Assembly: GCA_005879535.1 (NCBI GenBank)
Contig: VBKI01000078.1
Coordinates: 1-64,000 of the forward strand
Length of the DNA stretch: 64,000 nt
Direction of reading: 5' to 3'
DNA from: Deltaproteobacteria bacterium
GTDB taxonomy: Bacteria; Myxococcota; Myxococcia; Myxococcales; 40CM-4-68-19
Made by a program: the position numbers and the translations under genes
Notes under the pieces: model-generated
Database searches by the model: none
Told to the model about the DNA's origin: nothing
The model's input: the letters and a program-made list of their open reading frames with translations, nothing else
Shown here: positions 39,679 to 56,881 of the stretch, one piece after another
Layout of the letters: every line of letters starts with the position of its first letter
Numbering within the stretch: the first letter of the stretch is position 1

Positions 39679-41043
39679 ATGAGCATCCGCGAGCAGATCC
39701 GGCAGGCGCTTTCGCTCTCGGCCTCCGACGCGCGTCAGCTGCACGCCCGGCACGTGAATCCCACGTTCATCGAGGCGCTCGAGCTGTTTGGGTTCGGGCG
39801 GGACTTCGTCAAGGCCGAGGGCCTGTCGCTGTGGGACCACGAAGGCCACGAGGTGCTCGACTTTCTCGCCGGGTACGGGGCGGTGTCGCTCGGGCACAAT
39901 CACCCCGACGTGCGCGCCGCGATCGAAGAGGTGCTGCAGGCGCGGGCGCCACATTTCCTGCTCGTGTCGCCGCAGCGGCTTGCGGCGGCGCTGGCGAAGC
40001 GCCTGGCCGTCGTCGCGCCGGGCGATCTCGATCTTTGCACCTTCGGCTCCAGCGGCTCCGAGGCCGTCGAGAGCGCCCTCAAGCTGGCCCGTGCGGCGAC
40101 GCGCCGGCCGCGCTTCGTCTCCGCGGACCGCAGCTACCACGGGACGACCCTCGGTGCTCTCGCCGTGACGGGGAGCGTCCGCCACCGCGCGCCCTTCGAG
40201 CCGCTCCTCGACGGTTGCGTCCGCGTGCCCTTCGGCGATCCCTTCGCGCTCGAGCGGGAGCTGAAGCGCCGCGACGTCGCCGCGGTCGTGCTCGAGCCGA
40301 TGCAGGGCGAAGGCGGTATGCGTCCTGCGCCGCACGGATACCTCGCCGAGGCCGCGCGGCTCTGCCGGCGTTACGGTTCACTCCTTGTCCTCGACGAAAT
40401 CCAGACCGGGCTCGGTCGTTGCGGGTATCTCTTCCTCTGCGAGGAGCAGAACGTCGAACCGGACGTGCTCCTCCTGGCAAAGGGACTCTCCGGCGGGCTG
40501 GCGCCCATCTCGGTGATGATCACGCGAGGGCGCCTCTGGGAGCGCGCCTACGGGACGCTGCAGAGATACGACCTGCACTGCACCACCTTCGGCGGCGGGC
40601 CGGTCGCGTGCGCGGCCGGCCTTGCCACCCTCGAGGTGATCGAGCGCGACCGACTGGTCCATGCCGCGGCTGCGGCGGGTGAGTACCTGCGCGAGCGGCT
40701 CCGCGCAGCCACCGCCGGACATCCGCTCGTGCGCGAGGTGCGCGGCCGTGGATTGCTTTGGGGCATCGAGCTCGACGCTCCCGGAGGCGGGATGGGAGCG
40801 GATCTGGCGGGGCAGTGGGTCGTCATCGGCCTGCTCGAGCGCGGGATGCTGACGCAGGTGTGCGCCGACGCGACCGGTGTCGTGCGCGTCCAGCCGCCGC
40901 TCACGGTGACGCGCGAGGCGATCGACCGGTTCGCCGAGGCGCTGCGCGCCACGCTCGCCGATCATGCTGCAGGTCGCTGGAGCACTGTGGCCGCCGCGGC
41001 CTCGCGGGCGGTGAAAACCAGTCTCGCGCGGGCCTTCGCCTGA
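39679..41043 (+). CDS. class-III pyridoxal-phosphate aminotransferase
   Basis: A 454-residue fold-type I PLP enzyme. N-terminal LWDHEGHEVLDFLAGYGAVS and GHNHPDVRAAIEEVLQ form the substrate region. FGSSGSEAVESALKLARAAT binds the phosphate, VLEPMQGEGGM and SLLVLDEIQTGLGRCGYLF contain the cofactor Asp, and LLAKGLSGGLAPISVMI contains the Schiff-base Lys. It resembles ornithine/acetylornithine-type and putrescine/polyamine transaminases. The amino acceptor is unknown; in this lipid-like cluster it may install an amine on an acyl chain or supply an amino building block. GGGGAA precedes ATG 39679. First gene of a three-gene (+) operon with a radical SAM enzyme (11 bases on) and a sterol-desaturase-family protein. 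Confidence 0.9.
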   Translation: MSIREQIRQALSLSASDARQLHARHVNPTFIEALELFGFGRDFVKAEGLSLWDHEGHEVLDFLAGYGAVSLGHNHPDVRAAIEEVLQARAPHFLLVSPQRLAAALAKRLAVVAPGDLDLCTFGSSGSEAVESALKLARAATRRPRFVSADRSYHGTTLGALAVTGSVRHRAPFEPLLDGCVRVPFGDPFALERELKRRDVAAVVLEPMQGEGGMRPAPHGYLAEAARLCRRYGSLLVLDEIQTGLGRCGYLFLCEEQNVEPDVLLLAKGLSGGLAPISVMITRGRLWERAYGTLQRYDLHCTTFGGGPVACAAGLATLEVIERDRLVHAAAAAGEYLRERLRAATAGHPLVREVRGRGLLWGIELDAPGGGMGADLAGQWVVIGLLERGMLTQVCADATGVVRVQPPLTVTREAIDRFAEALRATLADHAAGRWSTVAAAASRAVKTSLARAFA

Positions 41044-41054
41044 GGGAAACAATC

Positions 41055-42113
41055 ATGGCTCGACTGCCCGTCGTTTCGAGCCTCGCCGCCTCCGCCCGCT
41101 ACGGCTGGCGCGGAGCACGGCTGCTGACTGGCTTTCTCCGGGCGCGGCCGATCCACTGCATCGTCCAGGTCTCGAACCGCTGCAATCTCACCTGCGGCTT
41201 CTGTTCCTTCTGGGAGCGTCCTGCGCATCCCCGGGACGAGATGACGGTGCCGGAATTCGAGGGTATCTCCGCGAAGCTGGCCGAGGCGGGCTCGATGGTC
41301 GTCTCGATCGAAGGGGGCGAGCCGCTCTTGCGCCCCGACATCGTCGACATCGTGCGGGCCTTCGCGCGCTACCATCACCCGATCCTCTTCACCAACGGCT
41401 GGCGCGTGACCGATTCGCTGGCGCGTGAGCTGTGGGACGCCGGGCTCACCGAGATCGGCGTCTCGATCGACTTCGCCGTCCCGGAGCGGCACGACGCGCA
41501 TCGCGGGGCGCAGGGTACTTTCGCCGCCGCCGTGCGCGCGCTGCGGGCCTTGCGGGACACGGCCCCGCATGGCGCTCGCCAGGTCGCGGTGATGACGGTG
41601 CTCATGCACGACAACCTCGACCAGTTCGAGGACCTGCTCCGGCTGTCCGCGGAGCATGGAGTCATGCACCAGTGCACGCTGCTCTCGACCGCGGGCGACG
41701 GGCGCGCGGACGGCGGACACGCGCTTCCCAGTGGTGGCCTCGGCGCCCGCCTGCTCGACCTCAAGGCTCGTTACCCGCACTTCATCAGCTTCAGCGGATA
41801 CCTGGAAGGCGTCGACGGATTCCTCGCCGGAGAGGTGCGCACGCCGTGCTGGGCGGGCGAGAGGTTCCTCAACATCGATCATCTCGGCGAGGTCTCGCCC
41901 TGCATCGAGAAGCTGCATCTGCGCGCCGGGAACATCCGGCGGGAACCCTGGTCGGTGATCGCGGCGCGGCTACGCAGCTTCGAGGAGCTGCGCACCTGCA
42001 CCGACTGCTACACGTCGTGCCGCGGTTTCGTCGAGGAGATGAGCGGTCCGCCGCGCCTGCGCAGCTGGCGCGAGTTCTTCGGCGCCTTTGCCAATGTGGC
42101 GGCGCCCCGGTAG
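41055..42113 (+). CDS. radical SAM protein with C-terminal Cys cluster (SPASM/twitch-like)
   Basis: A 352-residue enzyme. The radical SAM site is VQVSNRCNLTCGFCSFW (C43-x3-C47-x2-C50), followed by VSIEGGEPLLRPDIVDIVRA (GGE motif, SAM binding). The C-terminal third has further Cys residues: TPCWAG, EVSPCIEKLHL and RTCTDCYTSCRGF, arranged as for one auxiliary Fe-S cluster. Such enzymes modify peptides, lipids or small molecules. The neighbours (aminotransferase, sterol desaturase-like, KS/CLF operon) favour a lipid or polyketide substrate. GAGGG lies upstream of ATG 41055. It is not closely similar to the other radical SAM enzyme of the cluster at 51180. Confidence 0.88.
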   Translation: MARLPVVSSLAASARYGWRGARLLTGFLRARPIHCIVQVSNRCNLTCGFCSFWERPAHPRDEMTVPEFEGISAKLAEAGSMVVSIEGGEPLLRPDIVDIVRAFARYHHPILFTNGWRVTDSLARELWDAGLTEIGVSIDFAVPERHDAHRGAQGTFAAAVRALRALRDTAPHGARQVAVMTVLMHDNLDQFEDLLRLSAEHGVMHQCTLLSTAGDGRADGGHALPSGGLGARLLDLKARYPHFISFSGYLEGVDGFLAGEVRTPCWAGERFLNIDHLGEVSPCIEKLHLRAGNIRREPWSVIAARLRSFEELRTCTDCYTSCRGFVEEMSGPPRLRSWREFFGAFANVAAPR

Positions 42114-42118
42114 GTCCG

Positions 42119-42943
42119 ATGCGAGCCGTCGCCCGTTGGCTGGCCCTGCCTCTTCTCATCGTCACGTCGGTGATCGGGGTGCTCCTGGCAATCTCCCTGC
42201 GCTTGCCGATCGTTCCCGTGCTCGCGGCCGGAGGCGTGCTCTACGCCGCGATCGTCCTCGCGCTCGAGCGCTGGCTTCCCTACGCTCCGGAATGGCAGCG
42301 GCCCAAGGGAGACGTGCCCACCGACATCGCGCACCTGGTCGTCACCGGAGGCCTGATCGAGTTCGCGACCGCTTTCGGTCTCGCGCCACCCGCTGCGAAG
42401 GCGATCTGGCCGTCGAGCTGGCCGCTGGTGGCGCAGATCGCGCTCGCGCTGATCGCCACGGAGCTCCTCGACTACTGGATCCATCGCCTGCTTCATGGCC
42501 CGCTCTGGCGGTTTCATGCCGTCCACCACAGTGCACCGAGGATGTATTGGGTCAATTCCTGGCGCCTCCATCCGGTGGAGGCGGTCCTGTACTGGTGCTG
42601 CACCGTCGCTCCGCTGCTCGTGCTGGGCGCGCCGGAGGTGCCGCTGGTCGTCGTCTGGGCGGCGACGACCGTCTTCCGCATGGTCCAGCATTCGAACGTC
42701 GACGTCCGGCTGGGACCGCTGAATTGGGTGCTCGCAGGGCCCGAGCTGCACCGCTGGCACCACTCGCGCGACCGGACCGAATCGGAGGCGAACTACGGGA
42801 ATGCGCTGATCGTGTGGGACGTCGTCTTCGGCACGCGCCGCCTTCCTGACCGCGCGCCGCCGCTCGACGTCGGCCTCGCCGGAAAGCCGTACCCCTCGGC
42901 GTACGGCGCGCAGATTCTCGCTCCGTTTCGCGGGCTGCCCTAG
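42119..42943 (+). CDS. sterol desaturase/fatty-acid hydroxylase superfamily protein
   Basis: A 274-residue integral membrane di-iron enzyme. About four TM helices (RWLALPLLIVTSVIGVLLAI; VPVLAAGGVLYAAIVLALE) surround the His boxes: DYWIHRLLHGPLW, FHAVHHSAPRMYW, MVQHSNVDVRLG and ELHRWHHSRDRTESEANYGN. These give the expected eight or so His ligands. Members hydroxylate or desaturate long-chain lipids (sterols, ceramides, carotenoids, alkylglycerols). Here it probably tailors the product of the adjacent KS/CLF pathway. It starts 5 bases after the radical SAM gene, and its 3' end overlaps the convergent LCAT-like gene by 4 bases. Confidence 0.9.
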   Translation: MRAVARWLALPLLIVTSVIGVLLAISLRLPIVPVLAAGGVLYAAIVLALERWLPYAPEWQRPKGDVPTDIAHLVVTGGLIEFATAFGLAPPAAKAIWPSSWPLVAQIALALIATELLDYWIHRLLHGPLWRFHAVHHSAPRMYWVNSWRLHPVEAVLYWCCTVAPLLVLGAPEVPLVVVWAATTVFRMVQHSNVDVRLGPLNWVLAGPELHRWHHSRDRTESEANYGNALIVWDVVFGTRRLPDRAPPLDVGLAGKPYPSAYGAQILAPFRGLP

Positions 42944-44115
42944 GAGCAGGCGGGATTGCCGGCGAGAGGGAGCCCGGTGCCTCGGCGAACGTCAAGATGC
43001 GTTTCGGGAATCGCGCGGTCGGTGGCGAGCAGCGCTTCGAGGACGAGGCGGTGAACGTCGCGATCCGCTGGCAGCGCCCGGTGCTCGTTGGACTCGACGA
43101 ACCACACGCGTTGCGGGTCGAGGGACGGCAATCCCTGAAGGCTGCGCACCGGCACCGCCGAATCGCCCGGCTCGTATGCGAAACGAAGGCGCGGATCGTC
43201 GGGCCGCGGCTCGCAAGGCGGGAACGTCGCGCGGCCGCGCTGGACGATGCAGCGCGTGGCCGTCGGCAGGTTGCGCGCGCCGATGACGAACGAATCGGGA
43301 TGCGTGACCTGCGCGATCGTGCGTTGCAAGCGCGCTGCCGTTTCCAGTCGGCGCGCCAGATCGGTCACGCCGGGATCGAGCTGCAACCTCTGCCAGGTAT
43401 CGGGATCGTAGAGGTCGATGTCGAGCGATGCGCCATCTGCGTCCACGAAGACGCGCTCTTCCCGGTGCGGAAGAGCGTCCCATACTGTCTGGAAACGGGC
43501 CACGGCAGATCCGGAAAAGCTCTTGCCGAGCGGCGCCGGTCGGACTCCCTCGGCGATGTACCAGAGCGCGCTGAACGCTCCCCGCTGCGGCGTGCCCACG
43601 TAGACGATGCGCCGCACCGGCGCGTTGCCCTGCGCGAGGAGCCAGCGGATGGCGAGCCCGCCCGTCGACATTCCGATCAGATCGAACCGCTCGTGGCCCG
43701 CGCCGCGCAGCCGCTCGAGCAACTCCGCGAGCTGCTCGCCAACCTCGGTGACGCCGCCTCGCCAGTCGTATTCGAAGACCTGCAGATCTTCGCCAAGCAC
43801 GTATCCGCCCACGCCGGTGAGGAAGCGAAGCATGCCGCCGAAGACGTCGTAGTCGAGCAGACCTGGAATGACGGTGAAGCCTCGCAGCAACCCGGCGGCG
43901 TGGATTCCCGGATCGTCTCCGAGCGGCGGGCCAAAATAGAGCCGCCGCGCGCTTCCCCAGGCGAGCCGGCCGCATGGGTCCGCGAGGCGCGTTCCGAGAA
44001 TGCTGGGCACGAGCACCACGGGGGTCCGCTCCGCAGTCAGCCGGGCGCGCCGGCGCAACAGGCGGATGCGCAGCGGAAGCCGGTGGATCCTTTCGTACAG
44101 CCGGTTGAGGAGCAT
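42940..44115 (-). CDS. lecithin:cholesterol-acyltransferase-like alpha/beta hydrolase
   Basis: A 391-residue protein with the LCAT/PDAT-type start VVLVPSILGTRLADPCGRLA and lid region, YDWRGGVTEVGEQLAELLER, and the nucleophile elbow LIGMSTGGLAIRWLLAQ. Later YEPGDSAVPVRSLQGLP supplies the acid (G-D-x-x-V-P is a family hallmark), and the His is probably in SNEHRALP. LCAT relatives move acyl chains between lipids or hydrolyse phospholipids. No signal peptide is visible; the N-terminus is Arg-rich. Last gene of the nine-gene (-) operon, 3 bases after the ACP gene. It may release or transfer the finished acyl chain. Confidence 0.85.
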   Translation of the reverse strand: MLLNRLYERIHRLPLRIRLLRRRARLTAERTPVVLVPSILGTRLADPCGRLAWGSARRLYFGPPLGDDPGIHAAGLLRGFTVIPGLLDYDVFGGMLRFLTGVGGYVLGEDLQVFEYDWRGGVTEVGEQLAELLERLRGAGHERFDLIGMSTGGLAIRWLLAQGNAPVRRIVYVGTPQRGAFSALWYIAEGVRPAPLGKSFSGSAVARFQTVWDALPHREERVFVDADGASLDIDLYDPDTWQRLQLDPGVTDLARRLETAARLQRTIAQVTHPDSFVIGARNLPTATRCIVQRGRATFPPCEPRPDDPRLRFAYEPGDSAVPVRSLQGLPSLDPQRVWFVESNEHRALPADRDVHRLVLEALLATDRAIPETHLDVRRGTGLPLAGNPACS

Positions 44116-44118
44116 GGA

Positions 44119-44526
44119 TCAGGCCGCGTCGGCAGGCGCCGCGCCCATCTTTGCGCGCACGAGGTTCACGAACGTCTGTACCGAGAAGAGGCTGAGGATT
44201 TGTACCGGCCGCAGCCCCGGGTGGATGCGGGCTGCCGCTTCGGGCATCAGCTCGCGAAGCCGGGCGAGGCCTTGCTCGGAAACCACCCCGCCGGGAGCGA
44301 ACTCCTCGTCGCTCATCTCTCCGCGCGCAGCGCGCTCCATCTCGCCGCGGGTGATCTGGATGTGGAACTCGTGCTCGAGCTTGAAGACGATGTCGAGGAA
44401 GTCGAGCGACTCCGCCCCGAGATCGGCCATCAGGATCGAGTCGAGCCGCACGTCCGATGGGGACCGCGCGAGCGCTTCGGCGACGATCTCACGGACCCGC
44501 TCAGGTACGCGCGTCGATTCGCTCAT
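44119..44526 (-). CDS. acyl carrier protein, long form
   Basis: A 135-residue protein. The N-terminal ~85 residues form an ACP: VREIVAEALARSPSDVRLDS, then ADLGAESLDFLDIVFKLEHE, where the Ser in GAESLD is the phosphopantetheine attachment site. The C-terminal extension (VQILSLFSVQTFVNLVRAKM) resembles the last helix of an ACP placed after a roughly 35-residue insertion (GEMSDEEFAPGGVVSEQGLA), so the domain is about 50 residues longer than standard. ATG 44526 lies within the end of the nitroreductase gene (26-base overlap). It is presumably the shuttle for chains made by the two KS/CLF pairs upstream. Confidence 0.88.
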   Translation of the reverse strand: MSESTRVPERVREIVAEALARSPSDVRLDSILMADLGAESLDFLDIVFKLEHEFHIQITRGEMERAARGEMSDEEFAPGGVVSEQGLARLRELMPEAAARIHPGLRPVQILSLFSVQTFVNLVRAKMGAAPADAA

Positions 44527-45184
44527 CCTTGTCCCCTTGCTCGTCGTGCCACTGCACGACCTGGCTGATGGGCTTGCGCGGCCGCGCCTGAGGCGCTTCC
44601 GCCGGCCAGCCCAACGCGACGGCGCCGACCATCCGCCAGGGCGGCACGATGCGGAGCAGCGATTGGACCTCGTCGCGCGCAACCATCGGTCCCGCCATCC
44701 AGCAGGCGCCGAGCCCCTCCGCGTGCGCCTGCAGCAGGAGCGCCATGGTTGCCGCGCTCGTCGAGCAGAGCTCTGCCTGCATGGCAGAGGCGGTGGGAAG
44801 CGTCGCCGGATCGCCTCCGCCGGAGTGGATCAGCTCGGCGAGCAGGTCGGGATACTCCCGGTACTGGGGCACGACGATGGCTGCCGCCGTCTCCAGCGGC
44901 TCGAAGAAGAAGTCGCCGTAGCTGCCGAATTCCTCGGCATGGTGCGATCGACGAATGATGTCCTTCATCGCCTCCGTCCTGCTGCGCACGGCATCGACCA
45001 GCGCGGCGCGGATTGGAGCTGCGGTCACGACTGCGAACCGCCAGGGTTGGCGGTTGGTGCTCGACGGCGCCGTGATCGCGGCCTCCAGAATCCGCTCCAG
45101 CAGCGCGCGATCGATCGATCGCGGAGCGAAGACGCGGACGCTGCGGCGGCCGCGCAACCATTCGAGGTTCGTGGGGCCATTCAT
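44501..45184 (-). CDS. nitroreductase-family flavoprotein
   Basis: A 227-residue FMN-dependent protein. It shows RRSVRVFAPRSIDRALLERI (FMN phosphate-binding R-R-S-x-R), AAITAPSSTNRQPWRFAVVT and the later LLLQAHAEGLGACWMAGPMV with G-x-G-x-C-W. Nitroreductase-fold enzymes reduce enones, nitro groups or flavins, and some dehydrogenate heterocycles. Within this cluster no enoyl-ACP reductase of FabI/FabK type is present, so it is a candidate for the missing C=C reduction or an oxidation step (inference). ATGA overlaps link it to the FabG-like gene upstream; the ACP gene starts inside its 3' end. Confidence 0.88.
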   Translation of the reverse strand: MNGPTNLEWLRGRRSVRVFAPRSIDRALLERILEAAITAPSSTNRQPWRFAVVTAAPIRAALVDAVRSRTEAMKDIIRRSHHAEEFGSYGDFFFEPLETAAAIVVPQYREYPDLLAELIHSGGGDPATLPTASAMQAELCSTSAATMALLLQAHAEGLGACWMAGPMVARDEVQSLLRIVPPWRMVGAVALGWPAEAPQARPRKPISQVVQWHDEQGDKDERIDART

Positions 45185-45921
45185 TCGAGCTTGAACCCCC
45201 CGTCGACGTTCCAGACCTGGCCAGTCACGTAGCTTGCTTCATCGCTGCAGAGGAATGCGATCACGCGCGCCACTTCCTCGGCAGTGCCCGGCCTGCGCAA
45301 GAGGATACGCCGATTCACCTCGTCTCGCGCAAGGGCGAGCAGGTCCGCGGACATCGTGGTTTCGATGACGCCCGGCGCGACCACGTTGACGCGAATGCCC
45401 CGGGGAGCCAGCTCGACCGCGATCGAGCGCGCAAAGGCTTCGACCGCTCCCTTGGAACCGGCGTAGTTCGATTGCCCGCGGCCGGGGCGCTGGGCGGCAA
45501 CGGACGAGACGAGCACGATCGCTCCCCGCCGGCGCGCGATCATGTGCCGTGAGGCCGCCCGGCAGGCGTGGACCGCGCCGAGGAAGTTCACGCGCATCAC
45601 CTCGTCGAAGTCCGCGGGCTCGCTCGCGCCGAGCAGGGAGTCGCGCGTGACGCCCGCCGCGCAGACGAGCACGTCCGGCGGTCCCAGACCGGTGACCAGC
45701 TCCTCGCCAGTGCGCTGGACGTCGTTCCAAGCCGCCACATCGCCGCGGAGGAGCTGCGTGCTGACACCGAGCCGCGCAGCCTCTTCCGCCACCCGTGAGG
45801 CCGCGGCCTCGGAGCTTCGGAACCCGATGCCGACGGAGAGTCCGCGGCGTGCCAGCTCGAGGATCACGGCGCGGCCGATGCTGCCCGACGCTCCCGTGAC
45901 CCACGCGACGCCCGCGTTCAC
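45181..45921 (-). CDS. 3-oxoacyl-ACP reductase, FabG-like SDR
   Basis: A 246-residue classical SDR. Cofactor motif VTGASGSIGRAVILELAR, VCAAGVTRDSLL, catalytic Ser in IVLVSSVAAQRPGRG, and Y-x-x-x-K in NYAGSKGAVEAFARSI. NVVAPGVIETTMS and the end YVTGQVWNVDGGFKLE are typical of FabG. GFRSSEAAAS after the second strand suggests NADPH. It reduces the beta-keto group produced by the ketosynthases. It sits between the KS/CLF genes and the nitroreductase gene with 4-base overlaps on both sides. A second SDR of this kind is at 52901. Confidence 0.92.
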   Translation of the reverse strand: MNAGVAWVTGASGSIGRAVILELARRGLSVGIGFRSSEAAASRVAEEAARLGVSTQLLRGDVAAWNDVQRTGEELVTGLGPPDVLVCAAGVTRDSLLGASEPADFDEVMRVNFLGAVHACRAASRHMIARRRGAIVLVSSVAAQRPGRGQSNYAGSKGAVEAFARSIAVELAPRGIRVNVVAPGVIETTMSADLLALARDEVNRRILLRRPGTAEEVARVIAFLCSDEASYVTGQVWNVDGGFKLE

Positions 45922-47093
45922 GGGACCTCCACCCGGACGGCAGCGACCAGACCTGGCGCTCCCGCGCTGAGGAGCAGCGCGGACGTCTCTTCGGCGGGGG
46001 TTGGCACGGCGACCGGATGCAGAGCACCGGGTGCGGCATGTTCGAGTCCGGCGATGGACGGCAGCACGCCCCGGCGCAGGATCTCGGCCGCTGCGATCGC
46101 CTGGACCACGGGCGCGGCCGCGCCGAGACGGCCCAGCGACGCCGCGCTCGCCAGGAGTCGCGCCGATTCCGGCAACACGCCGGCGAGGGACTCGCGCTCG
46201 GCGAAATCCATCTCAGGTCGTGCCCAGGCCGCCCCGTCGACGATCCTTTCGCAATGAGAGACGAGCGCAGCGATTTCGGCGAGGCGCTGCGCTCGCGGTT
46301 CGCCGGAGGGAAGCGGGTCAGCGTCCACACCTGCTATGCAGGAGAGGAGCGGAAGTCCTTTCCCGGCGGCAGCTCGCACGAGGAGGACGGCCGCCGTGCC
46401 TTCGCTGGGCACCGCGCCCTCCGCCCGTTCATCGTAGGGCGGGCGCCAGTGGGTGAGGTCGGCGCGGGTGGCCACCCGGCGCTCGGTCAAGTCCGCCACC
46501 GACTGCGGATCGAGCAGCGAGTCATAGGCGACGACCAGCGCAGCGTCGACGGCGCCGGCCTCGAGAGCGCGCCCTGCGGCGCACAGCGCCTCGGCGCCGG
46601 CAATCGCTCCCGCAAAGGTGGCACCGTCGCCGCGGATCTGCAGGTCGATCGAGAGCAGGGCGTGCACGTTGTTGGAAAGCTGCTGCAGCATCCAGAACGG
46701 ATGCATCTGCGCGAGCCCCCGATCCCAAAGGCCGGCGCCGTCGTCTCGCTGCCGCGCGAGAGCGCGGACCAGGTCGTCCCAGCGCGCGCGGAGCCCACCG
46801 GTGGCGGCGAACAAAGCGGTGCGCTCGAGTCGCGGATCGCCCGGCGCGAAACCGGCGCCCGCCATCGCCTCGCGTCCGACTTCCAGCGCTAGGAGCCCGA
46901 CCCTGTCGAGGAACCGGTCGTTGCGGCAGGGCGCGGGCTGGTCCGGAATTGCGCACCGCAGCTGGCATGCTCCCGGGACCACATGCGGTGCGGGCTGGAC
47001 GGCGTGCTCCCCGGCGAGCCACCGCGACACGACGCGCTCGATCGAGCCGCCGAGCGGCGTGCGCCAGGCGCGGCCCGCAATTGCTGCGATCAT
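45918..47093 (-). CDS. ketosynthase-like protein without the active-site Cys (CLF-like)
   Basis: A 391-residue thiolase-fold protein that aligns along most of its length with ketosynthases but lacks the catalytic set. Where KS enzymes have TACSSG, it reads FAGAIAGAEAL, with Ala in place of Cys. The HGT(S/G)T loop is absent, and the K..GH motif is degenerate (AASLGRLGAAAPVVQ). The stretch AQMHPFWMLQQLSNNVHALL matches the chain-length-factor branch as seen in highly reducing type II systems. It probably pairs with the active KS encoded immediately upstream (ATGA overlap, 47090-48385). ATG 47093 follows GGAGGG. Its partner order (KS then CLF) is repeated upstream. Confidence 0.85.
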   Translation of the reverse strand: MIAAIAGRAWRTPLGGSIERVVSRWLAGEHAVQPAPHVVPGACQLRCAIPDQPAPCRNDRFLDRVGLLALEVGREAMAGAGFAPGDPRLERTALFAATGGLRARWDDLVRALARQRDDGAGLWDRGLAQMHPFWMLQQLSNNVHALLSIDLQIRGDGATFAGAIAGAEALCAAGRALEAGAVDAALVVAYDSLLDPQSVADLTERRVATRADLTHWRPPYDERAEGAVPSEGTAAVLLVRAAAGKGLPLLSCIAGVDADPLPSGEPRAQRLAEIAALVSHCERIVDGAAWARPEMDFAERESLAGVLPESARLLASAASLGRLGAAAPVVQAIAAAEILRRGVLPSIAGLEHAAPGALHPVAVPTPAEETSALLLSAGAPGLVAAVRVEVP

Positions 47094-48385
47094 TTCCGCC
47101 CTCCAGGGTGTCCGAGCGCCAGGCAAACGTTCTGGCCACCGAAGCCGAACGAATTGGAGAGGGCGACGTCAATCGTTGCATGCCGCGGTTGCTCGCCGAT
47201 CACTGGCAGCGGGCAGTCCGGATCGGGCTCGCGGTGATGCGCGGTGCCGGGAAGAAGATCCCGCTGGAAGGCAAGCAAGCACGAGGCCAGCTCGATCGCT
47301 CCGGACGCGGACATCAGATGCCCGACCGCGCCCTTGATCGAGCTGACGGGGATGCGTTCCGCCTGTGCACCGAACGCTCCGCGAATGGCGCGGGCCTCCG
47401 CGGGATCGTTCAGCGGCGTGCCGGTGCCGTGCGCGTTGACGTACCCGACTTCCGCCGGTGAAAGACCGGCGCGAGAGAGTGCCAGCTCCATGGCGCGGCG
47501 CGCGGCGGCGCCGTCGGGCCGCGGCGTGGTCGCGCGATACCCGTCTTGCGTGCTGCCCCAGCCCAGCACGCGAGCGAGGGCAGTGGCTCCGCGCGCCTCC
47601 GCACGGCGCTCGTCCTCGACGACGAACATGGCGGCGCCCTCACCGATGGCGAGGCCGTCGCGGCGGCGATCGAATGGGCGGCATGCGTCCGGCTCGTTGC
47701 GCGGCGAAGGCGCTCCAATGCGCGCCAGTCCGCCGATACCCAACGGATTGACCATGGAGTCCGTCCCGCCGCAAACCACGACGTCCGACTCGCCGCGCTC
47801 GACGAGAGCCGCGGCGTGCGCCACGGCCAGCCCGCCGGCGGCGCAGGCGCTCGCGTGGATCACGGCGAGACCGCGCAGCTCGAGCAATTGCCGGACGGAG
47901 CGGGCGGCGAGATCGACAGGCGAGCGGAACCGTACGAAGGGAAGCGAGGCCGCGGCCTGGGCTGTCCAGTCGATCGCACCCTCGCGCCAGATCGGCGCGA
48001 AATCTTCGAGAAAGGCCTGCTCGAGTCCGATGGCGATCGACAGCGAGGCGTGTTGCTCGGCGGGGCCACAGCCTGCTGCGCGCCAGGCCTCGGCGGCCGC
48101 CAGCAGCGCGAACGGAACCTTGCGGTCTCGCAACGACCCGTCGCGCTCCAGGTCGTGCACGAGCAGATCCGCGGGCCCAAATCCGGCCAACTTTCCGGCG
48201 AGCCACGCAGGCGCGATGGTGGAGAGAGGGACCTCGCCTGCGACGCGCACCGGAAAGTGGCTCGCGTCGAACGAGCGGATGGGTCCGACCGCGGCGCGCC
48301 CTGCAGCGAGCGCATCGAGCAACGGCTGCAGACCCACGCCGAAGGGGGACACGACGCCCGCGCCGCTGATGACCGCCCGCCTCAC
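47090..48385 (-). CDS. beta-ketoacyl synthase (KS, active-site complete)
   Basis: A 431-residue KAS II-type condensing enzyme. The triad is intact: nucleophile in VIHASACAAGGLAVAHAAAL, first His in YVNAHGTGTPLNDPAEARA, second His with Lys in SSIKGAVGHLMSASGAIELA. It ends NSFGFGGQNVCLALGH. It decarboxylates an extender-ACP and condenses it with an acyl primer. GTG 48385 overlaps the stop of the preceding CLF-like gene (GTGA) and follows a GGGGGGG stretch. The longer frame from ATG 48421 would overlap that gene more and adds an unrelated leader. It forms a KS/CLF pair with the next gene, judging by order and coupling. Confidence 0.92.
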   Translation of the reverse strand: MRRAVISGAGVVSPFGVGLQPLLDALAAGRAAVGPIRSFDASHFPVRVAGEVPLSTIAPAWLAGKLAGFGPADLLVHDLERDGSLRDRKVPFALLAAAEAWRAAGCGPAEQHASLSIAIGLEQAFLEDFAPIWREGAIDWTAQAAASLPFVRFRSPVDLAARSVRQLLELRGLAVIHASACAAGGLAVAHAAALVERGESDVVVCGGTDSMVNPLGIGGLARIGAPSPRNEPDACRPFDRRRDGLAIGEGAAMFVVEDERRAEARGATALARVLGWGSTQDGYRATTPRPDGAAARRAMELALSRAGLSPAEVGYVNAHGTGTPLNDPAEARAIRGAFGAQAERIPVSSIKGAVGHLMSASGAIELASCLLAFQRDLLPGTAHHREPDPDCPLPVIGEQPRHATIDVALSNSFGFGGQNVCLALGHPGGRK

Positions 48386-49419
48386 GGCCCCCCCTGCCGC
48401 AGCACGACGCTCCCGATGCACCCATCGACGCCCGCGCTCAACACCAGGGCCGTCTCGCCGGATTTCAGCAAATCCAGGGCGGCAACCCAGGCCAACGGGG
48501 GTGCTGCTGCCAGCGAATCGCCGAGCGTCAGGCTCACATCGATCGTGCGACAGGCGCTGCAGCGGCTGGCGGCAAGATCGGAAAGGAGCGCTCGGGCCGG
48601 CGCTCCCCAGGGCGCGAGCACGACCAGATCGGCGTGCGAGGGAAGCGTCAGCGATGCGATGTCGCCGCCCTCGCGAACGGCGGCCACCGACCGGAGGAGC
48701 GCGAGCGGGCGCTCCGACCGCCGGCAGAGCGCGAGGACTGCCGCTCCTTCACCCGGCATCAGGCCCCGATTTGCGAAGCCGTCGCGAACGAGCTCTGCCC
48801 AGGTGATCGGGTGCAGCGCAGTGTCGGCCCCGCCTGCCACCGCGCGATCGCAGTCTCCTTCGAGAAGGGAATGCACCGCCTCGGCCAAAGCCGTTACGGT
48901 GCCTGCGCCGCGCGAGAAGAAGGCTCCGTTCGGACCGCCGAGCCCTTCGAGGATGGCTCCGTGACAGAGCGAGAAATTGTTGAGGGTCTGGAAGGTGAAG
49001 AGCGGGTTGCAAGCTGCGATTCCGCGCTCACCGAGCTTTTCGAGCGACAGCGCGCCTTCGCGGACGCTCTCTGCGAGGATGCACGGTACGTCCTGCATCG
49101 CGACGCCCGAGGCGCCGACTCCCATCCAGGCGCCGATCTCCTCGCGACGATCATGAAAGCCGGCATCGACCAGGGCCTCCCGCATTGCGATGGCGCCCAG
49201 GCGCGCGGCTCGTGACATCAGCTTGCGAGCGCGCGCATCGCCCGCGTCCAACCTCGAGGGGACCTCGCTGACCGAGGAGCAAAGCACGCCGGGATGCGAG
49301 GCGGCCAACTCCACCGAAGGCGCCACCGCCAGCTTGACGAGAGACTTCCCCAACCCGCGCCAGCCCACCCCGTAGGCGCTGACCGCGCCGGCGCCGACGA
49401 TGGCAACGGCGTCGCTCAT
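48382..49419 (-). CDS. ketosynthase-like protein without the active-site Cys (second CLF-like)
   Basis: A 345-residue protein, short for a KS. The start VAIVGAGAVSAYGVGWRGLG and the central CNPLFTFQTLNNFSLCHGAI, PNGAFFSRGAGTVTALAEAV and DCDRAVAGGADTALHPITWA place it in the KS/CLF superfamily. The Cys position of TACSSG is occupied by Arg in FFSRGAG, and no HGTxT loop exists. The C-terminal quarter is reduced (SLTLGDSLAAAPPLAWVAAL). It is therefore non-condensing on its own and probably the heterodimer partner of the KS encoded just upstream (49416-50615, 4-base overlap). It shares the N-P/H-P...Q-x-L-(N/S)-N pattern with the CLF-like protein at 45918. Confidence 0.83.
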   Translation of the reverse strand: MSDAVAIVGAGAVSAYGVGWRGLGKSLVKLAVAPSVELAASHPGVLCSSVSEVPSRLDAGDARARKLMSRAARLGAIAMREALVDAGFHDRREEIGAWMGVGASGVAMQDVPCILAESVREGALSLEKLGERGIAACNPLFTFQTLNNFSLCHGAILEGLGGPNGAFFSRGAGTVTALAEAVHSLLEGDCDRAVAGGADTALHPITWAELVRDGFANRGLMPGEGAAVLALCRRSERPLALLRSVAAVREGGDIASLTLPSHADLVVLAPWGAPARALLSDLAASRCSACRTIDVSLTLGDSLAAAPPLAWVAALDLLKSGETALVLSAGVDGCIGSVVLRQGGP

Positions 49420-50615
49420 GCCGCCCTCGCCAGCACGAGACTGCAGTTCGCGCCGCCGAAGGCGAACGCATTCACCAGCGCCGCGTCGACCCGCATCGTC
49501 ACTGCCCGTCCCATCACATGCGAAAGCGAGCAGTCCGGGTCGGGTTGTTCGAGGCCGGCAGTGGGGAGAACGGTTCCCCTCGCGACCGCCTCCGCGCCGG
49601 CGAGGAATCCGAGCGCTCCTGCCGCTGCGATCGTGTGACCGAGTGCGCCCTTGACGGAGCTGACGCGAACCGTGCCCAGCCTCTCACCGAAGACCGCTTG
49701 CAACGCCCGGGCCTCGACGGCATCGTTGAGCGGCGTCGAGGTGCCGTGCGCCTGGACGACCTCGACCGAGTGCCGGCCGGCATCGGCGAGCGCGAGGCGC
49801 ATGGCGCGGATGGCGCCGCCTCCGTCGGGCGCCGGGGCCGTGATGTGGTGCGCATCCAGCGTGCGGCCCACACCCTCGAGCTCGACGGCCGCAGGACGGC
49901 AGGACAGCACCGCCATGGCGGCACCCTCGCCGAGCACGAACCCGTCGCGCCGGTGGTCGAAGGGTCGCGATACGCCCGAAGCGCTCAGGGCGCCCAGCAA
50001 ACCGAACGCGGCGAGGAGCAATGGATCGACATCCGCGCCCACGCCGCCACAGAGCGCCACGTCGCATTCGCCGGCGCGCAGGGAACGAGCCGCCTCGATG
50101 ATGGCGGCGGCTCCGGAAGCGCAGGCGAGCGACACGGTCGCGCAGGGACCGCGCGTCCCGAATTCGGCGGCGAGCCGGAAGGCCACCGCGGCGGGCGAGA
50201 CCTCGCCCGGAGCGAGCGCCGATGCGCGCGCCTGCAGCGCCTTGATCAGCCGCGACTCATCCAGCCCTTGGTCGCGCGCGGACGCCCGCGCGAGCGCGAC
50301 CAGCGTCTCGAAGTCCGGCCGGCCCGTCTCTGCACCGACGAAGACCCCGATTCGCTCGGCAGGCGTGCTCTTCAGCCCCGCCGCGTCCCACGCCTCGCGC
50401 GCCGCGGGCAGCGCGAACGAAAGGCGGCGATCGGGCGCGCCGGGCGGGACCCGATCGATCGCCGCCGCATGGGAAGAAGGAAAACCGGTCGCATCGAAGA
50501 CGCGCACCGGCTGCACGGCGGAAGCGCCATCCGCCAGCGCAGCGCACGTCTGAGGCCAGGTTGCGCCGAGCGCGGTGAACGCACCGACTCCGTTGACGAA
50601 CACGGGCCGCCGCAC
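49416..50615 (-). CDS. beta-ketoacyl synthase (second KS, active-site complete)
   Basis: A 399-residue condensing enzyme. Catalytic Cys in TVSLACASGAAAIIEAARSL, His in VVQAHGTSTPLNDAVEARAL, Lys/His in SSVKGALGHTIAAAGALGF, and the glycine-rich end NAFAFGGANCSLVLARAA. It belongs to the FabF-like/type II PKS KS-alpha group. GTG 50615 is 2 bases after the FabZ-like stop. With the CLF-like gene that follows it forms the first of two KS/CLF pairs. Two non-identical pairs suggest that two chain-extension stages, or two chain lengths, are handled by one operon, as in some highly reducing type II polyene systems (inference). Confidence 0.92.
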   Translation of the reverse strand: MRRPVFVNGVGAFTALGATWPQTCAALADGASAVQPVRVFDATGFPSSHAAAIDRVPPGAPDRRLSFALPAAREAWDAAGLKSTPAERIGVFVGAETGRPDFETLVALARASARDQGLDESRLIKALQARASALAPGEVSPAAVAFRLAAEFGTRGPCATVSLACASGAAAIIEAARSLRAGECDVALCGGVGADVDPLLLAAFGLLGALSASGVSRPFDHRRDGFVLGEGAAMAVLSCRPAAVELEGVGRTLDAHHITAPAPDGGGAIRAMRLALADAGRHSVEVVQAHGTSTPLNDAVEARALQAVFGERLGTVRVSSVKGALGHTIAAAGALGFLAGAEAVARGTVLPTAGLEQPDPDCSLSHVMGRAVTMRVDAALVNAFAFGGANCSLVLARAA

Positions 50616-50617
50616 CG

Positions 50618-51082
50618 CTACTCTCCAACCGATCCGCCCAGCCAGATCTGCAATGCCTCACGCCGGCGCTGGATGAGCTTCGGGTTCGCGATCTTCACGA
50701 ACGCGAACGTCAGGTCCGCTTCGGCGACGAGTTTTCCGTCGACGCGCGCCAGCGCACGGACCTGGCCGCCTTCCTCTCGCGCCGCGAGGCCGATCGCCTC
50801 CAACTCGAGCCGGTCACCGGGCCGCACCACCTCGCGGAACTTCGCCCGATCGACCATGGTGAGCATCGCGTGAAGGTGATCATGGCCGCGCTCGCGCAAC
50901 GTTGCCTCGACCAGGACGCCCCCGAGTTGGGCCATGGCCTCGATGAGCAGCGCTCCAGGCATCACCGGCTGTCCGGGAAAATGATCGGCGAAGACGTCGT
51001 CCGCCAGCGACACGCACTTGACGGCCGTCGCGCTCTCCGGCGGCCGCAGCGTGAGGATCCGATCGAGGAGAAAGTACCGCAT
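50618..51082 (-). CDS. 3-hydroxyacyl-ACP dehydratase, FabZ-like
   Basis: A 154-residue hot-dog-fold protein with the FabZ active-site stretch ADDVFADHFPGQPVMPGALL, then IEAMAQLGGVLVEATL. The catalytic His is in DHFPGQP and the acidic residue is the Glu of IEAMAQ. HAMLTMVDRAKFREVVRPGD and RALARVDGKLVAEADLTFAF are the usual later strands. It dehydrates 3-hydroxyacyl-ACP to the trans-2-enoyl form. First gene of the (-) operon. ATG 51082 (MRYFLLDRIL) is the conserved start; an upstream ATG (51223) would run into the divergent radical SAM gene. The 97 bases to that gene form a divergent promoter region. Confidence 0.92.
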   Translation of the reverse strand: MRYFLLDRILTLRPPESATAVKCVSLADDVFADHFPGQPVMPGALLIEAMAQLGGVLVEATLRERGHDHLHAMLTMVDRAKFREVVRPGDRLELEAIGLAAREEGGQVRALARVDGKLVAEADLTFAFVKIANPKLIQRRREALQIWLGGSVGE

Positions 51083-51179
51083 CGGAGCGGCGACTATATC
51101 CCCGGCGGAAAACGCATGCACCGCATTGACGGCGACGGTCCGGTTGTGGAGGATGCTGCGAAACCGCGCGGAGGGCACG

Positions 51180-52904
51180 ATGGACTGCGCGATCTGCGAA
51201 CCGACGCGGACGCGGCCTGACAAGCCGCATACCTTCTTCGCTCACGAGTACATACCCTGCCCGAAATGCGAGCGGCGCGGTGAGGCGCGGATCGTCTTGC
51301 GCGGCGGCCAGGTCTGGGCGCTGCTGCGCTGCGAGAGCTGCGGGCCGGTCGAGCGACTTCATCATCAAGACGCGGCCGCCTTCGTCGCCGCGTTCCTCGC
51401 CCGTGGCGAAGCGGATGCTGCTTCTCCCGTGGACCGCGTCTTCAAGCACACCACCTCCGTGTGCCCGCACTGCCTGCGGCTGCTCGAGGTGGAGGTCGTG
51501 CTGCGCGCCGGCAAGGTCTACTTCCGCAAGGATTGCCCTTCCTGTGGCAAGTCCGAGGCGCTGGTCAGCGAGGACGCCCTCTACTACGTGCGCGCCTACG
51601 CCTTCGCGCGCGCCGGCACCGAGCCGCTGCACTTCTCGCGGAAGGCGGAGCATGGCTGCCCGACGGACTGCGGCGTCTGCGACGAGCACGAGCAGCACAC
51701 CTGCCTGCCCATCGTCGAGGTGACGGACCACTGCAACCTGGAGTGCCCGATCTGCATCGTCAACAACCGGTATTCGTCGCACATCTCGCTCGCCGACTTC
51801 GAGCGGATCATCGACGGCATGGTCCACCGCGAAGGAATGTGCGAGTCGGTCGCGCTCTCCGGCGGCGAGCCCACCAGCCATCCGCAGATCCTCGACCTCG
51901 TTCGCATCGCGACCCGGCCCGAGATCGGCCGGGTGGTGATCATCACCAACGGGCTGCGCCTCGGGCGGGACCACGCCTTCGCGGAGGCGATCCGGGAGAG
52001 CGGCGCCTACGTGGCGCTGCAACTCGACGGCTTCACGGCCGACACGCACGAGAAGATCCGCGGCCGCGATCTCGTGGCGGAGAAAGACGCAGCGCTGCGC
52101 ATCCTCAAGGAGCTGCGGATCCCCACGCAGCTCGTCTTCGTCGCCACCCGCGGCGCCAACGAGCACCAGATCGGGCAGGCAGTCGAGTTGCTCTTGCGCG
52201 AGGACCACATCCTCTCGCTGAACTTCCAACCGGCGGCCTTTACCGGCTACGGCGGCGGGAAGTACCCGGGCGATCCGATGGATCGCTTGACCATTCCGGG
52301 CGTCATCCAGCGCATCGAGGAACAGACCGGCGGCAAGCTACGCAAGTCCGACTTCTACCCGCTGCCGTGCTCGCATCCGCAGTGCGTCTCGCTCACCTAT
52401 CTGATGAAGCTCGAGGACGACACGCACCTGCCATTCGGACGCTTCGTGGATTTCTCCCGCTTTGGAACGCTGTTGCGGTCGTCGGCGACGCTGCCCGCGA
52501 ACGAGCAGATCCACGAGGCGCTGCATGAGGTGATCCACGACGTGTTCGCGCGTCAGGACGAGATCGAGCGCGGTCCAGACGTGCTCGTCGCGCTTCGCGC
52601 GCTGCTCTTGCAGATGTTTCCCGACCGGCTGCTGTCTCCCAAGGAGGCGGTGCGCATCGGCGAAGGCCGGGCAAAGTCGATCTTCCTCCACCATTACATG
52701 GACCGGCACGATTTCGACCTCGAGCGGCTGCGCAAGTGCTGTCACCATTACCCGCAAGCGGACGGGCGGGTCATGCCCGCCTGCGGGTTCAACATGTTCC
52801 ACCGCGGCGCGGCGAAGGGACCGGACACCGCGGTGGCGGATTTCGCGCGCCCTGGAGCCAACGGCCTCGGGGGCAGGAGGCTGCCCGTGGTGAGCGCCGG
52901 ATGA
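51180..52904 (+). CDS. radical SAM enzyme related to tetraether-lipid synthase Tes / MJ0619
   Basis: A 574-residue, Cys-rich protein. N-terminal Cys pairs (27/30, 51/54, 95/98, 119/122) look like zinc-ribbon or rubredoxin-like knuckles. Then the family block GCPTDCGVCDEHEQHTC (Cys 160-175) is followed at once by VTDHCNLECPICIVNN, the radical SAM site C185-x3-C189-x2-C192. SVALSGGEPTSHPQILDLVR and VVIITNGLRLGRD bind SAM. C-terminal Cys groups (PLPCSHPQC; RKCCHHYPQ; PACGFNMFH) suggest auxiliary clusters. This order matches archaeal Tes, which joins lipid chain ends, formerly annotated as a pterin methyltransferase. GGAGGG precedes the ATG. ATGA overlap links it to the SDR gene. The exact reaction is inference. 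Confidence 0.85.
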   Translation: MDCAICEPTRTRPDKPHTFFAHEYIPCPKCERRGEARIVLRGGQVWALLRCESCGPVERLHHQDAAAFVAAFLARGEADAASPVDRVFKHTTSVCPHCLRLLEVEVVLRAGKVYFRKDCPSCGKSEALVSEDALYYVRAYAFARAGTEPLHFSRKAEHGCPTDCGVCDEHEQHTCLPIVEVTDHCNLECPICIVNNRYSSHISLADFERIIDGMVHREGMCESVALSGGEPTSHPQILDLVRIATRPEIGRVVIITNGLRLGRDHAFAEAIRESGAYVALQLDGFTADTHEKIRGRDLVAEKDAALRILKELRIPTQLVFVATRGANEHQIGQAVELLLREDHILSLNFQPAAFTGYGGGKYPGDPMDRLTIPGVIQRIEEQTGGKLRKSDFYPLPCSHPQCVSLTYLMKLEDDTHLPFGRFVDFSRFGTLLRSSATLPANEQIHEALHEVIHDVFARQDEIERGPDVLVALRALLLQMFPDRLLSPKEAVRIGEGRAKSIFLHHYMDRHDFDLERLRKCCHHYPQADGRVMPACGFNMFHRGAAKGPDTAVADFARPGANGLGGRRLPVVSAG

Positions 52905-53650
52905 GCACGCGACTGCTCGAGGGAAAGGTGGCGCTGGTGACCGGGGGCTCCCGCGGGCTGGGCCGCGCCATCTGCAGGACGCTCGCCGGCGAGGGGGCGG
53001 CGGTGGCGTTCAACTACAGCCGCTCCGACGAAGATGCGCGCCGAACCCTCGACGAGCTTCGCAGCTCGGGCGCGCGGGCGTGGGCCTTTCGCGCCTCGGT
53101 CCTGGACAAGGTGGCGATCGACGCCATGGTCCGCGCCATCGAGGCCGAAGCAGGCGCGCCGGTGGACGTGCTCGTCAACAACGCCGGCGTGGGCCAGGTC
53201 GTGCCCCTTGCGCTGATGCAAGAGGACGACTGGGACAAGATGATGGACGTGCACGTGAAGGGCGCGTTCCTCGTCACCCAAGGCGTGCTGCGCGGCATGA
53301 TCCGGATGCGTCGCGGCAGGATCCTCAACGTCAGCTCGCTCGCCGGCGTGAAGATGCTGGAGGCGCCGGTACATTACTGCACCGCCAAAGCGGCGCTGAA
53401 GGGCTTCACGGAAGGCTTGGCAAAAGAGATCGGCCGCTATGGCGTTACCGTGAACTGCATCGCCCCGGGGATCCTCGAAGAGGGGGTCAGCGTGAACGTG
53501 CCGCCGGCGAAGCGCGATGATTATCTGCGCCATTGCGCCGTGGGCCGCGTGGGCACGTTCGAGGAGATCGCAAGCGTGGTGGCGTTCCTCGTTTCCGACG
53601 GCAATTCCTACATGAACGGGGCGACGATCGTGGTGGACGGCGCCGTCTAG
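52901..53650 (+). CDS. FabG-like short-chain dehydrogenase/reductase
   Basis: A 249-residue classical SDR. VALVTGGSRGLGRAICRTLA binds NADP(H), then VDVLVNNAGVGQVVPLALMQ, catalytic Ser in ILNVSSLAGVKMLEA, and Y-x-x-x-K in HYCTAKAALKGFTEGLAK. VNCIAPGILEEGVSVNVPP replaces the more usual P-G-x-I-x-T. The end YMNGATIVVDGAV is typical. FNYSRSDED supports NADPH. It is coupled (ATGA) to the Tes-like radical SAM gene, so the two enzymes probably act in succession. It is the cluster's second ketoreductase and may act on a different intermediate than the FabG-like protein at 45181. Confidence 0.9.
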   Translation: MSTRLLEGKVALVTGGSRGLGRAICRTLAGEGAAVAFNYSRSDEDARRTLDELRSSGARAWAFRASVLDKVAIDAMVRAIEAEAGAPVDVLVNNAGVGQVVPLALMQEDDWDKMMDVHVKGAFLVTQGVLRGMIRMRRGRILNVSSLAGVKMLEAPVHYCTAKAALKGFTEGLAKEIGRYGVTVNCIAPGILEEGVSVNVPPAKRDDYLRHCAVGRVGTFEEIASVVAFLVSDGNSYMNGATIVVDGAV

Positions 53651-56756: not shown

Positions 56757-56812
56757 AGGGGAAGCCTGCCCGGAGAACCTTGCGCCAACCTGAACGCGCC
56801 GCTGAAGCGGAA

Positions 56813-56840
56813 TTCATCGGCTGTTCAGGCTTGGTTCAGG
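56813..56840 (+). promoter_or_regulatory. PHO-box-like direct repeats upstream of array member 2
   Basis: TTCA occurs at 56813, 56824 and 56835, an exact 11-base period. The last two copies are part of an identical 7-mer, GTTCAGG (56823-56829 and 56834-56840). Response regulators of the PhoB/PhoP type bind 11-base-spaced direct repeats, and a TAATCC -10-like hexamer begins 9 bases later (56849). It lies 41 bases before the ATG of a PstS-like gene. The repeat is seen directly; the regulator is inferred. Confidence 0.55.
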
Positions 56841-56881
56841 GGGGCGCGTAATCCTCTCGCAACTCTGAAGGAGGCGCCCAC

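Follow-up and report, generated by a model that had tools for sequence, protein, structure and literature searches.

Gene content and organization of the cluster

The window (the whole stretch analysed, 64,000 nucleotides of contig VBKI01000078.1 in the Deltaproteobacteria bacterium assembly GCA_005879535.1) contains, at positions 39679-53650, a cluster of fourteen genes that combines two pairs of a ketosynthase (KS) and a chain length factor-like partner (CLF) with two radical S-adenosylmethionine (SAM) enzymes, one of which resembles the archaeal tetraether synthase Tes. The source genome is 5.16 Mb in size and of high completeness, and the cluster sits on a 93-kb contig. The genes form three units. 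The left unit, on the (+) strand, encodes an aminotransferase (AT3), a radical SAM enzyme (rSAM1), and a PF04116 hydroxylase. The central (-) operon reads, from 5' to 3', FabZ-KS1-CLF1-KS2-CLF2-FabG-nitroreductase-acyl carrier protein (ACP)-LCAT-like, and the right (+) unit consists of the Tes-like radical SAM gene followed by a short-chain dehydrogenase/reductase (SDR) gene. Profile searches recovered all fourteen genes with the families and the three-unit layout proposed in the initial annotation:

39679..41043, +, AT3, class III (pyridoxal phosphate-dependent) aminotransferase (PF00202, 305 bits; PDB 4ppm, 337 bits; PigE model NF053554, 466 bits)
41055..42113, +, rSAM1, radical SAM enzyme with C-terminal SPASM domain (PF04055, PF13186)
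42119..42943, +, FA_hydroxylase/sterol-desaturase-like putative membrane oxygenase (PF04116, 109 bits; OlsE model NF052566, 203 bits, cut-off 475)
42940..44115, -, LCAT-like/alpha-beta hydrolase with a GMSTGG serine motif (PF02450, 22.9 bits, cut-off 21)
44119..44526, -, ACP of 135 aa; phosphopantetheine site GAESLDF; C-terminal extension conserved (PF00550)
44501..45184, -, nitroreductase-family flavin enzyme (PF00881, 101 bits)
45181..45921, -, FabG-type 3-ketoacyl-ACP reductase (TIGR01830, 229 bits, cut-off 298)
45918..47093, -, CLF2, catalytically dead KS partner (PF00109, 59 bits; catalytic positions I, A, A, R)
47090..48385, -, KS2, active-type ketosynthase, Cys-His-Lys-His (PF00109 and PF02801; start GTG 48421 or 48385)
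48382..49419, -, CLF1, short catalytically dead KS partner, 345 aa (PF00109, 62 bits; residues; AlphaFold2 fold)
49416..50615, -, KS1, active-type ketosynthase, Cys-His-Lys-His (PF00109 and PF02801)
50618..51082, -, FabZ-type 3-hydroxyacyl-ACP dehydratase (FabZ model NF000582, 115.0 bits, cut-off 113)
51083..51179, no strand, divergent intergenic region of about 97 bp between the FabZ and Tes-like starts
51180..52904, +, Tes-like radical SAM enzyme of 574 aa; additional zinc-ribbon-like repeat at the N-terminus (PDB 7tol, E 1e-60)
52901..53650, +, SDR2, FabG-like SDR paired with the Tes-like gene (PF00106, 188 bits; NF009466, 214 bits)

The central operon is tightly packed, as the initial annotation had described (junctions overlapping or 2-3 bases apart), with measured junctions from -40 to +3 bases: FabZ/KS1 +2, KS1/CLF1 -4, CLF1/KS2 -40 (or -4 with GTG at 48385), KS2/CLF2, CLF2/FabG, and FabG/nitroreductase -4 each, nitroreductase/ACP -26, and ACP/LCAT-like +3. 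The left and central units are convergent, and the stops of the hydroxylase and LCAT-like genes overlap by 4 bases. The central and right units diverge from the intergenic region, in which a promoter scan found no sigma-70-type site; the FabZ start was placed at 51082 rather than at TTG 51223 because the alignments of its orthologues begin there, and the Tes-like gene starts with ATG at 51180. An open reading frame at 42088-42849 was rejected as the hydroxylase gene, as it lies in the wrong frame and matches no family; the correct frame is 42119-42943.

Ketosynthases and chain-building enzymes

Both ketosynthases retain Cys, His, Lys, and His at the four catalytic positions, here and in the aligned carriers, and CLF1 and CLF2 lack this set in every genome compared (residue alignment), in line with the CLF-like assignment first made. 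CLF1 also lacks the C-terminal Pfam domain, and its AlphaFold2 model (predicted template modelling score, pTM, 0.83) resembles KS/CLF structures, including the short ishigamide CLF (6kxf_B). At the residue level, the cluster has the active KS, adjacent dead KS homologue, and discrete ACP that define KS/CLF systems of type II polyketide synthases (PKSs).

Scores against solved structures place KS1 closer to FabF (1j3n, 211 bits) than to the KSs of ishigamide (6kxd, 149 bits), aryl polyene (6qsp, 117 bits), or actinorhodin biosynthesis. The nearest PDB entries of KS2 are the FabFs 1e5m and 1j3n, and only FabF-type chains match it at E<=1e-60. The source genome has one canonical FabF elsewhere (C77), which scores 624 bits, and the cluster KSs reach 338 and 268 bits against the FabF model, under its cut-off of 494, indicating that the cluster encodes a second, dedicated chain-building system. 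Comparison of the ACP and FabZ with solved structures revealed no special affinity to any one solved relative, e.g. the anammox proteins.

Profile searches detected no FabI-type enoyl reductase among the cluster genes. A nitroreductase-family enzyme is present with nearly every complete core (55-76% identity across carriers, compared to 60-80% for the ACP) and is the cluster's best candidate for enoyl reduction, although it may instead catalyse a dehydrogenation.

The Tes-like radical SAM enzyme

The Tes-like gene is single-copy in the source genome, and its product aligns nearly full length with the Methanocaldococcus enzyme GDGT-MAS (7tol). In a fold search, 7tom and 7tol ranked first and second, with template modelling (TM) scores of 0.67 of the query and 0.77 of the target over 491 columns for 7tom and 0.64 of the query for 7tol; the next matches reach at most 0.30 of the query and cover the radical SAM core only.

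The metal ligands named in PMC9433317 were mapped onto 24 bacterial Tes-family sequences. The radical SAM motif CX3CX2C is found in every one of them, with C185, C189, and C192 invariant in 23 aligned sequences, and the [4Fe4S]N ligands C73, C77, C80, and His read C, C, C, H in all 24. The rubredoxin cysteines C9, C12, and C33 are likewise kept in 24 of 24, with H36 being Cys in the close clade and His in the paralogues. All 12 close-clade sequences keep the C-terminal auxiliary-cluster cysteines, one of which is Pro in four paralogues, and Tyr459, which the paralogue clade has lost. The Tes homology originally assigned is confirmed at the levels of sequence, metal ligands, and fold. In the other carriers, the neighbouring SDR2 is found beside the Tes-like gene with 65-80% identity. 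The Tes-like gene of the closest carrier (L004 2104-3739, G010:C135) is split over two frames (3739-3569 and 3561-2104), which reflects either a true frameshift or a fault in the assembly.

To our knowledge, no function has been confirmed for bacterial tetraether synthase homologues. PMC8941075 reports 456 of them and suggests a role in the synthesis of branched glycerol dialkyl glycerol tetraethers (GDGTs), and PMC9433317 notes that some bacteria with homologues are not known to produce biphytanyl chains.

Co-occurrence and distribution across genomes

A profile search with CLF1 found the core in six of 195 Myxococcota genomes. Exactly these six encode the Tes-like protein at an identity of at least 58%, with next-best matches at 39% or less. 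Among 294 Oxalobacteraceae genomes, seven contain CLF1, and exactly those seven have a member of the Tes-like clade (at least 60% identity); rSAM1 is found in six of the seven and nowhere else among the 294. The seventh, without rSAM1, carries its CLF1 and Tes-like genes on a short contig. Across the 489 genomes of both groups, every one of the 13 carriers thus has the core together with the Tes-like gene. The probability of this overlap by chance is about 1e-11 for the Myxococcota and 3e-14 for the Oxalobacteraceae if the genomes are treated as independent, and less extreme given their relatedness.

A scan of 84,980 species genomes yielded at least 15 loci in Polyangium, Massilia, a Janthinobacterium metagenome-assembled genome (MAG), a MAG from the Gammaproteobacteria, and further MAGs that bear the label Deltaproteobacteria or Myxococcales; this is a lower bound because the scan used two CLF1 peptide patterns. 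Most carriers keep the Tes-SDR pair and the eight-gene order FabZ-KS1-CLF1-KS2-CLF2-FabG-nitroreductase-ACP, and the core order is the same in Pseudomonadota as in Myxococcota, with protein identities of about 39-80%. Of seven genomes from the source genus, just one has the core. In a tree of Tes sequences (computed without the wrong-frame rows L053 and L055, and with an unsure placement of the long-branched archaeal sequence), the Massilia and gammaproteobacterial sequences are nested within the Myxococcota beside two genomes of the Myxococcaceae-type family f4 (91/94 support), suggesting transfer between phyla. Judged from this distribution, the genes form a genuine cluster that is transferable. 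Cultured carriers are Massilia atriviolacea, M. aquatica, M. rubra, M. frigida, M. mucilaginosa, and Polyangium fumosum.

The initial annotation would have been refuted by units that do not co-occur outside this genome or by a set already characterised. The units do co-occur elsewhere, with a strict pairing of core and Tes-like gene and with the aminotransferase and SPASM genes in most carriers. As to earlier characterisation, we found no description of the gene combination, including in Massilia, Polyangium, and myxobacteria, in the searchable literature, which leaves most subscription papers and preprints outside its coverage. The cluster is rare, conserved, and apparently undescribed.

Variability of the tailoring genes

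The nearest solved structure of AT3 is PigE from prodigiosin biosynthesis (4ppm); its score against the PigE model lies under a cut-off of 850 that was set for a longer protein. Orthologues of rSAM1 (45-82% identity) occur in eight of the 12 carrier genomes tested, mostly beside AT3: the two genes adjoin in the window, the closest carrier G010, Massilia, Polyangium, and G201, and in G199 they lie side by side at a contig end. Core genes directly continue the rSAM1/AT3 stretch in five cases, namely the window, G010, Massilia, the gammaproteobacterial MAG, and G201. In the gammaproteobacterial MAG, hydroxylase and transketolase genes separate AT3 from rSAM1, and in Polyangium the aminotransferase/rSAM1 pair is located at a separate locus (L040, L041). 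The transketolase of the gammaproteobacterial cluster (L042 5065-8075) is encoded by split genes (PF00456; PF02779 and PF02780) between the aminotransferase and the hydroxylase.

The window hydroxylase, with the motifs HxxxH, HxxHH, and HxxHH, resembles the ornithine-lipid hydroxylase OlsE and is a version of its own; several carriers instead share a PF04116 protein from another subfamily. The LCAT-like gene was found elsewhere only in G010 (67% identity), and its product may be involved in chain release or transacylation.

The fuller clusters of Massilia and the gammaproteobacterial MAG are extended by two further SDRs, a Tes paralogue, and that same second type of aminotransferase gene found in other carriers. 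In three f4 genomes, one or two Tes paralogues (33-36% identity to the window's Tes-like protein) lie nearby, accompanied in one of them by SDRs and a second aminotransferase. Three Tes-family genes are located near one KS/CLF cluster in G133 (L013 12514-19989 and L073 1-12373), where SDRs, a PF04116 protein, a second aminotransferase, and a membrane protein shared with Massilia are encoded as well. In Massilia, the SDR and the Tes paralogue are separated by genes of the LPG_synthase_TM and zinc-dependent phospholipase C-like types (L046 13297-15443). A distant cousin cluster (L069 255-11313, G104:C29:21000-40000) encodes an ACP, FabG, one KS/CLF pair, FabZ, and a nitroreductase-like protein, and this set is oriented divergently to two Tes-family genes in tandem and an SDR, suggesting a wider superfamily of Tes-plus-KS/CLF clusters.

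Proposed pathway and alternative explanations

We are highly confident that the cluster represents one biosynthetic pathway for an acyl-derived product. On balance, the probable course of this pathway is that a dedicated type II PKS/fatty acid synthase (FAS) makes an acyl chain, a Tes-family enzyme couples or cyclises it at an unactivated carbon, and amination gives an amino-lipid. This interpretation is supported by the complete set of ketoreductase (KR), dehydratase (DH), ACP, and KS, the residue-level division into KS and CLF, the separate canonical FabF of the genome, the strict linkage of the Tes-like gene, and the homology, ligands, and fold of its product. The second aminotransferase, Tes paralogues, and PF04116 hydroxylases of the fuller clusters and the similarity of AT3 to PigE also favour it; the coupling or cyclising role itself has about an even chance. 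KS1/CLF1 and KS2/CLF2, whose families and catalytic residues are those described above, would build the chain together with FabG, FabZ, and the cluster ACP. Because a FabI-type reductase is lacking, double bonds would be expected to persist in the chain, unless enoyl reduction is carried out by the nitroreductase. The Tes-like enzyme would then take a hydrogen from an unactivated chain carbon and form a C-C bond, joining two chains or closing one. SDR2 may adjust a carbonyl, the PigE-like aminotransferase may place an amine on an aldehyde or ketone, and the SPASM enzyme may add a further modification; in the source lineage, the OlsE-like hydroxylase and LCAT-like hydrolase could finish or release the lipid. 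The predicted product is an unusual amino-lipid or lipid-like polyketide, for which membrane-spanning, amino, and cyclised forms are possibilities. A bolder and rather unlikely version is that the Tes-like enzyme joins two KS/CLF-made chains tail to tail and aminotransferases cap the ends, yielding a membrane-spanning amino bolalipid in mesophilic bacteria. If true, this would be a dedicated, horizontally transferred pathway, independent of the coupling of ordinary phospholipid tails.

Several observations weigh against the coupling or cyclisation of a chain and its amination. Compared with the Tes model NF045702 (cut-off 450), the Tes-like protein reaches 283 bits, and with the TrsS model NF045646 (cut-off 490) 271 bits; falling short of both, it forms a clade of its own that may catalyse another reaction. 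Its AlphaFold2 model (pTM 0.79) was built from 14 sequences and has low confidence around the radical SAM motif. The archaeal Met439 is His in 24 of 24 bacterial sequences. According to PMC9433317, Met439 (a labile ligand) and Tyr459, which adjoins the substrate terminus in GDGT-MAS, are completely conserved across 1000 archaeal homologues; the same source reports that the variants M439A and Y459F/L are still active, so the differences at these positions are compatible with coupling. Finally, four of the 12 carriers tested, three of them f4 genomes with Tes paralogues instead, have no close rSAM1 orthologue, and the tailoring is therefore variable.

The Tes-like enzyme might alternatively modify the polar end or a carrier-bound head in the manner of calditol synthase or HpnH, forming no bond between chains and giving a polar aminolipid. 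Amine- or headgroup-type genes do recur (aminotransferases, the OlsE-like hydroxylase, and the split transketolase), and the protein is about equally close to TrsS and Tes. We nevertheless consider this unlikely, as the auxiliary-cluster cysteines and Tyr459 are kept throughout the close clade.

Less likely still is a polyene or pigment cluster, in which KS/CLF pairs lacking an enoyl reductase would produce a conjugated polyene, with the role of the radical SAM enzymes limited to decoration. KS/CLF with KR, DH, and ACP in the absence of FabI is the logic of aryl polyene and other polyene type II PKSs, and CLF1 is short like the ishigamide CLF. However, the partner genes of aryl polyene clusters are missing, the KS1 scores given above favour FabF over both polyene-type KSs, and the nitroreductase that accompanies nearly every complete core could reduce the chain. 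That three unrelated units merely lie next to each other is very improbable: Polyangium has its aminotransferase/rSAM1 pair elsewhere and four genomes that lack the core encode distant relatives of rSAM1, but the Tes-like gene and core occur together in all 13 carriers and rSAM1/AT3 are contiguous with core genes in five, including the window.

The reading as coupled or cyclised amino-lipid points to a probably new class of lipid natural product and to an enzyme that would form C-C bonds by radical chemistry in partnership with a type II PKS/FAS. The co-occurrence data tie one clade of bacterial Tes homologues, with no exception in 489 genomes, to a specific acyl-chain-building cluster, and the cultured carriers make the question of Tes homologue function open to experiment, as the product can be sought in them.

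Flanking genes

In several carriers, a PiT-type (PHO4) transporter gene neighbours the cluster or some portion of it (window 38447-39559; L012 3948-5021; L042 19757-19972; L043 87-302), in L012 immediately after the ACP gene and on the same strand. On the opposite side of the cluster, two genes for PBP_like_2 (phosphate-binding-protein-like) proteins are encoded on opposite strands (window 55587-58051). An ATP-binding cassette (ABC) ATPase/FtsX permease pair borders the cluster (window 53657-55530) and is kept (77-80% identity) beyond AT3 in G010 (L045 7068-7999); a different ABC-2 pair adjoins rSAM1 in L043. Just upstream, a complete set of outer-membrane factor, HlyD-type adaptor, and AcrB-type resistance-nodulation-division (RND) pump is encoded (window 32923-38437), with nothing that ties them to the cluster.

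Comparison with known systems

The initial annotation had placed the cluster among highly reducing type II PKSs or aryl polyene systems. This part of its interpretation was not supported, as both KSs are closer to FabF; the co-occurrence of the units, the lack of a description in the literature searched, and the Tes homology were. Ammonia-lyase, glycosyltransferase, AMP-ligase, acyltransferase, and MMPL exporter genes are absent among the cluster genes, as it had noted along with the missing FabI-type reductase, and an aryl polyene cluster was rejected on these grounds. The ishigamide-type system (6KXD) shares the KS with a dead partner, discrete KR, DH, and ACP, and a short CLF, whereas here the KSs score nearer to FabF, which speaks against membership, and two KS/CLF pairs are accompanied by Tes-like and aminotransferase genes.

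The type II PKS-like system for cispentacin and coronafacic acid (PMC10698177) also has a KS with a dead partner and, for cispentacin, a class III aminotransferase. In contrast to it, the cluster has no AMP-dependent loading enzyme AmcH, and no radical SAM enzyme is mentioned in that paper. Membership was rejected because, besides the missing AMP-ligase, all scores are below the model cut-offs (AmcF, 178/325 bits for KS1 and 210/325 for KS2; AmcE, 48/140). The anammox ladderane and Desulfotalea FASII clusters (PMC2649909) likewise combine several FabF-like genes, some without active-site residues, with radical SAM genes. They differ in their phytoene-desaturase-like genes and B12-type radical SAM enzymes, neither of which is found among the genes of this cluster, and a ladderane-type assignment was thus discarded. 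The Plakortis swf cluster (PMC3908369), with a type I PKS and a B12-type radical SAM enzyme, was also dismissed as a parallel.

The window protein falls within the broad group of bacterial Tes homologues treated in PMC8941075 and PMC9433317; here it is tied to a dual KS/CLF cluster, a linkage not mentioned in the available parts of either paper. With archaeal Tes/GDGT-MAS (7TOL, 7TOM) it shares full-length homology, the CX3CX2C motif, the auxiliary-cluster cysteines, and Tyr459. It differs from them in the replacement of Met439 by His and of the rubredoxin His36 by Cys, in its extra N-terminal repeat, and in its sub-cut-off score, and, unlike the archaeal enzymes, it is bacterial and encoded together with a KS/CLF cluster.

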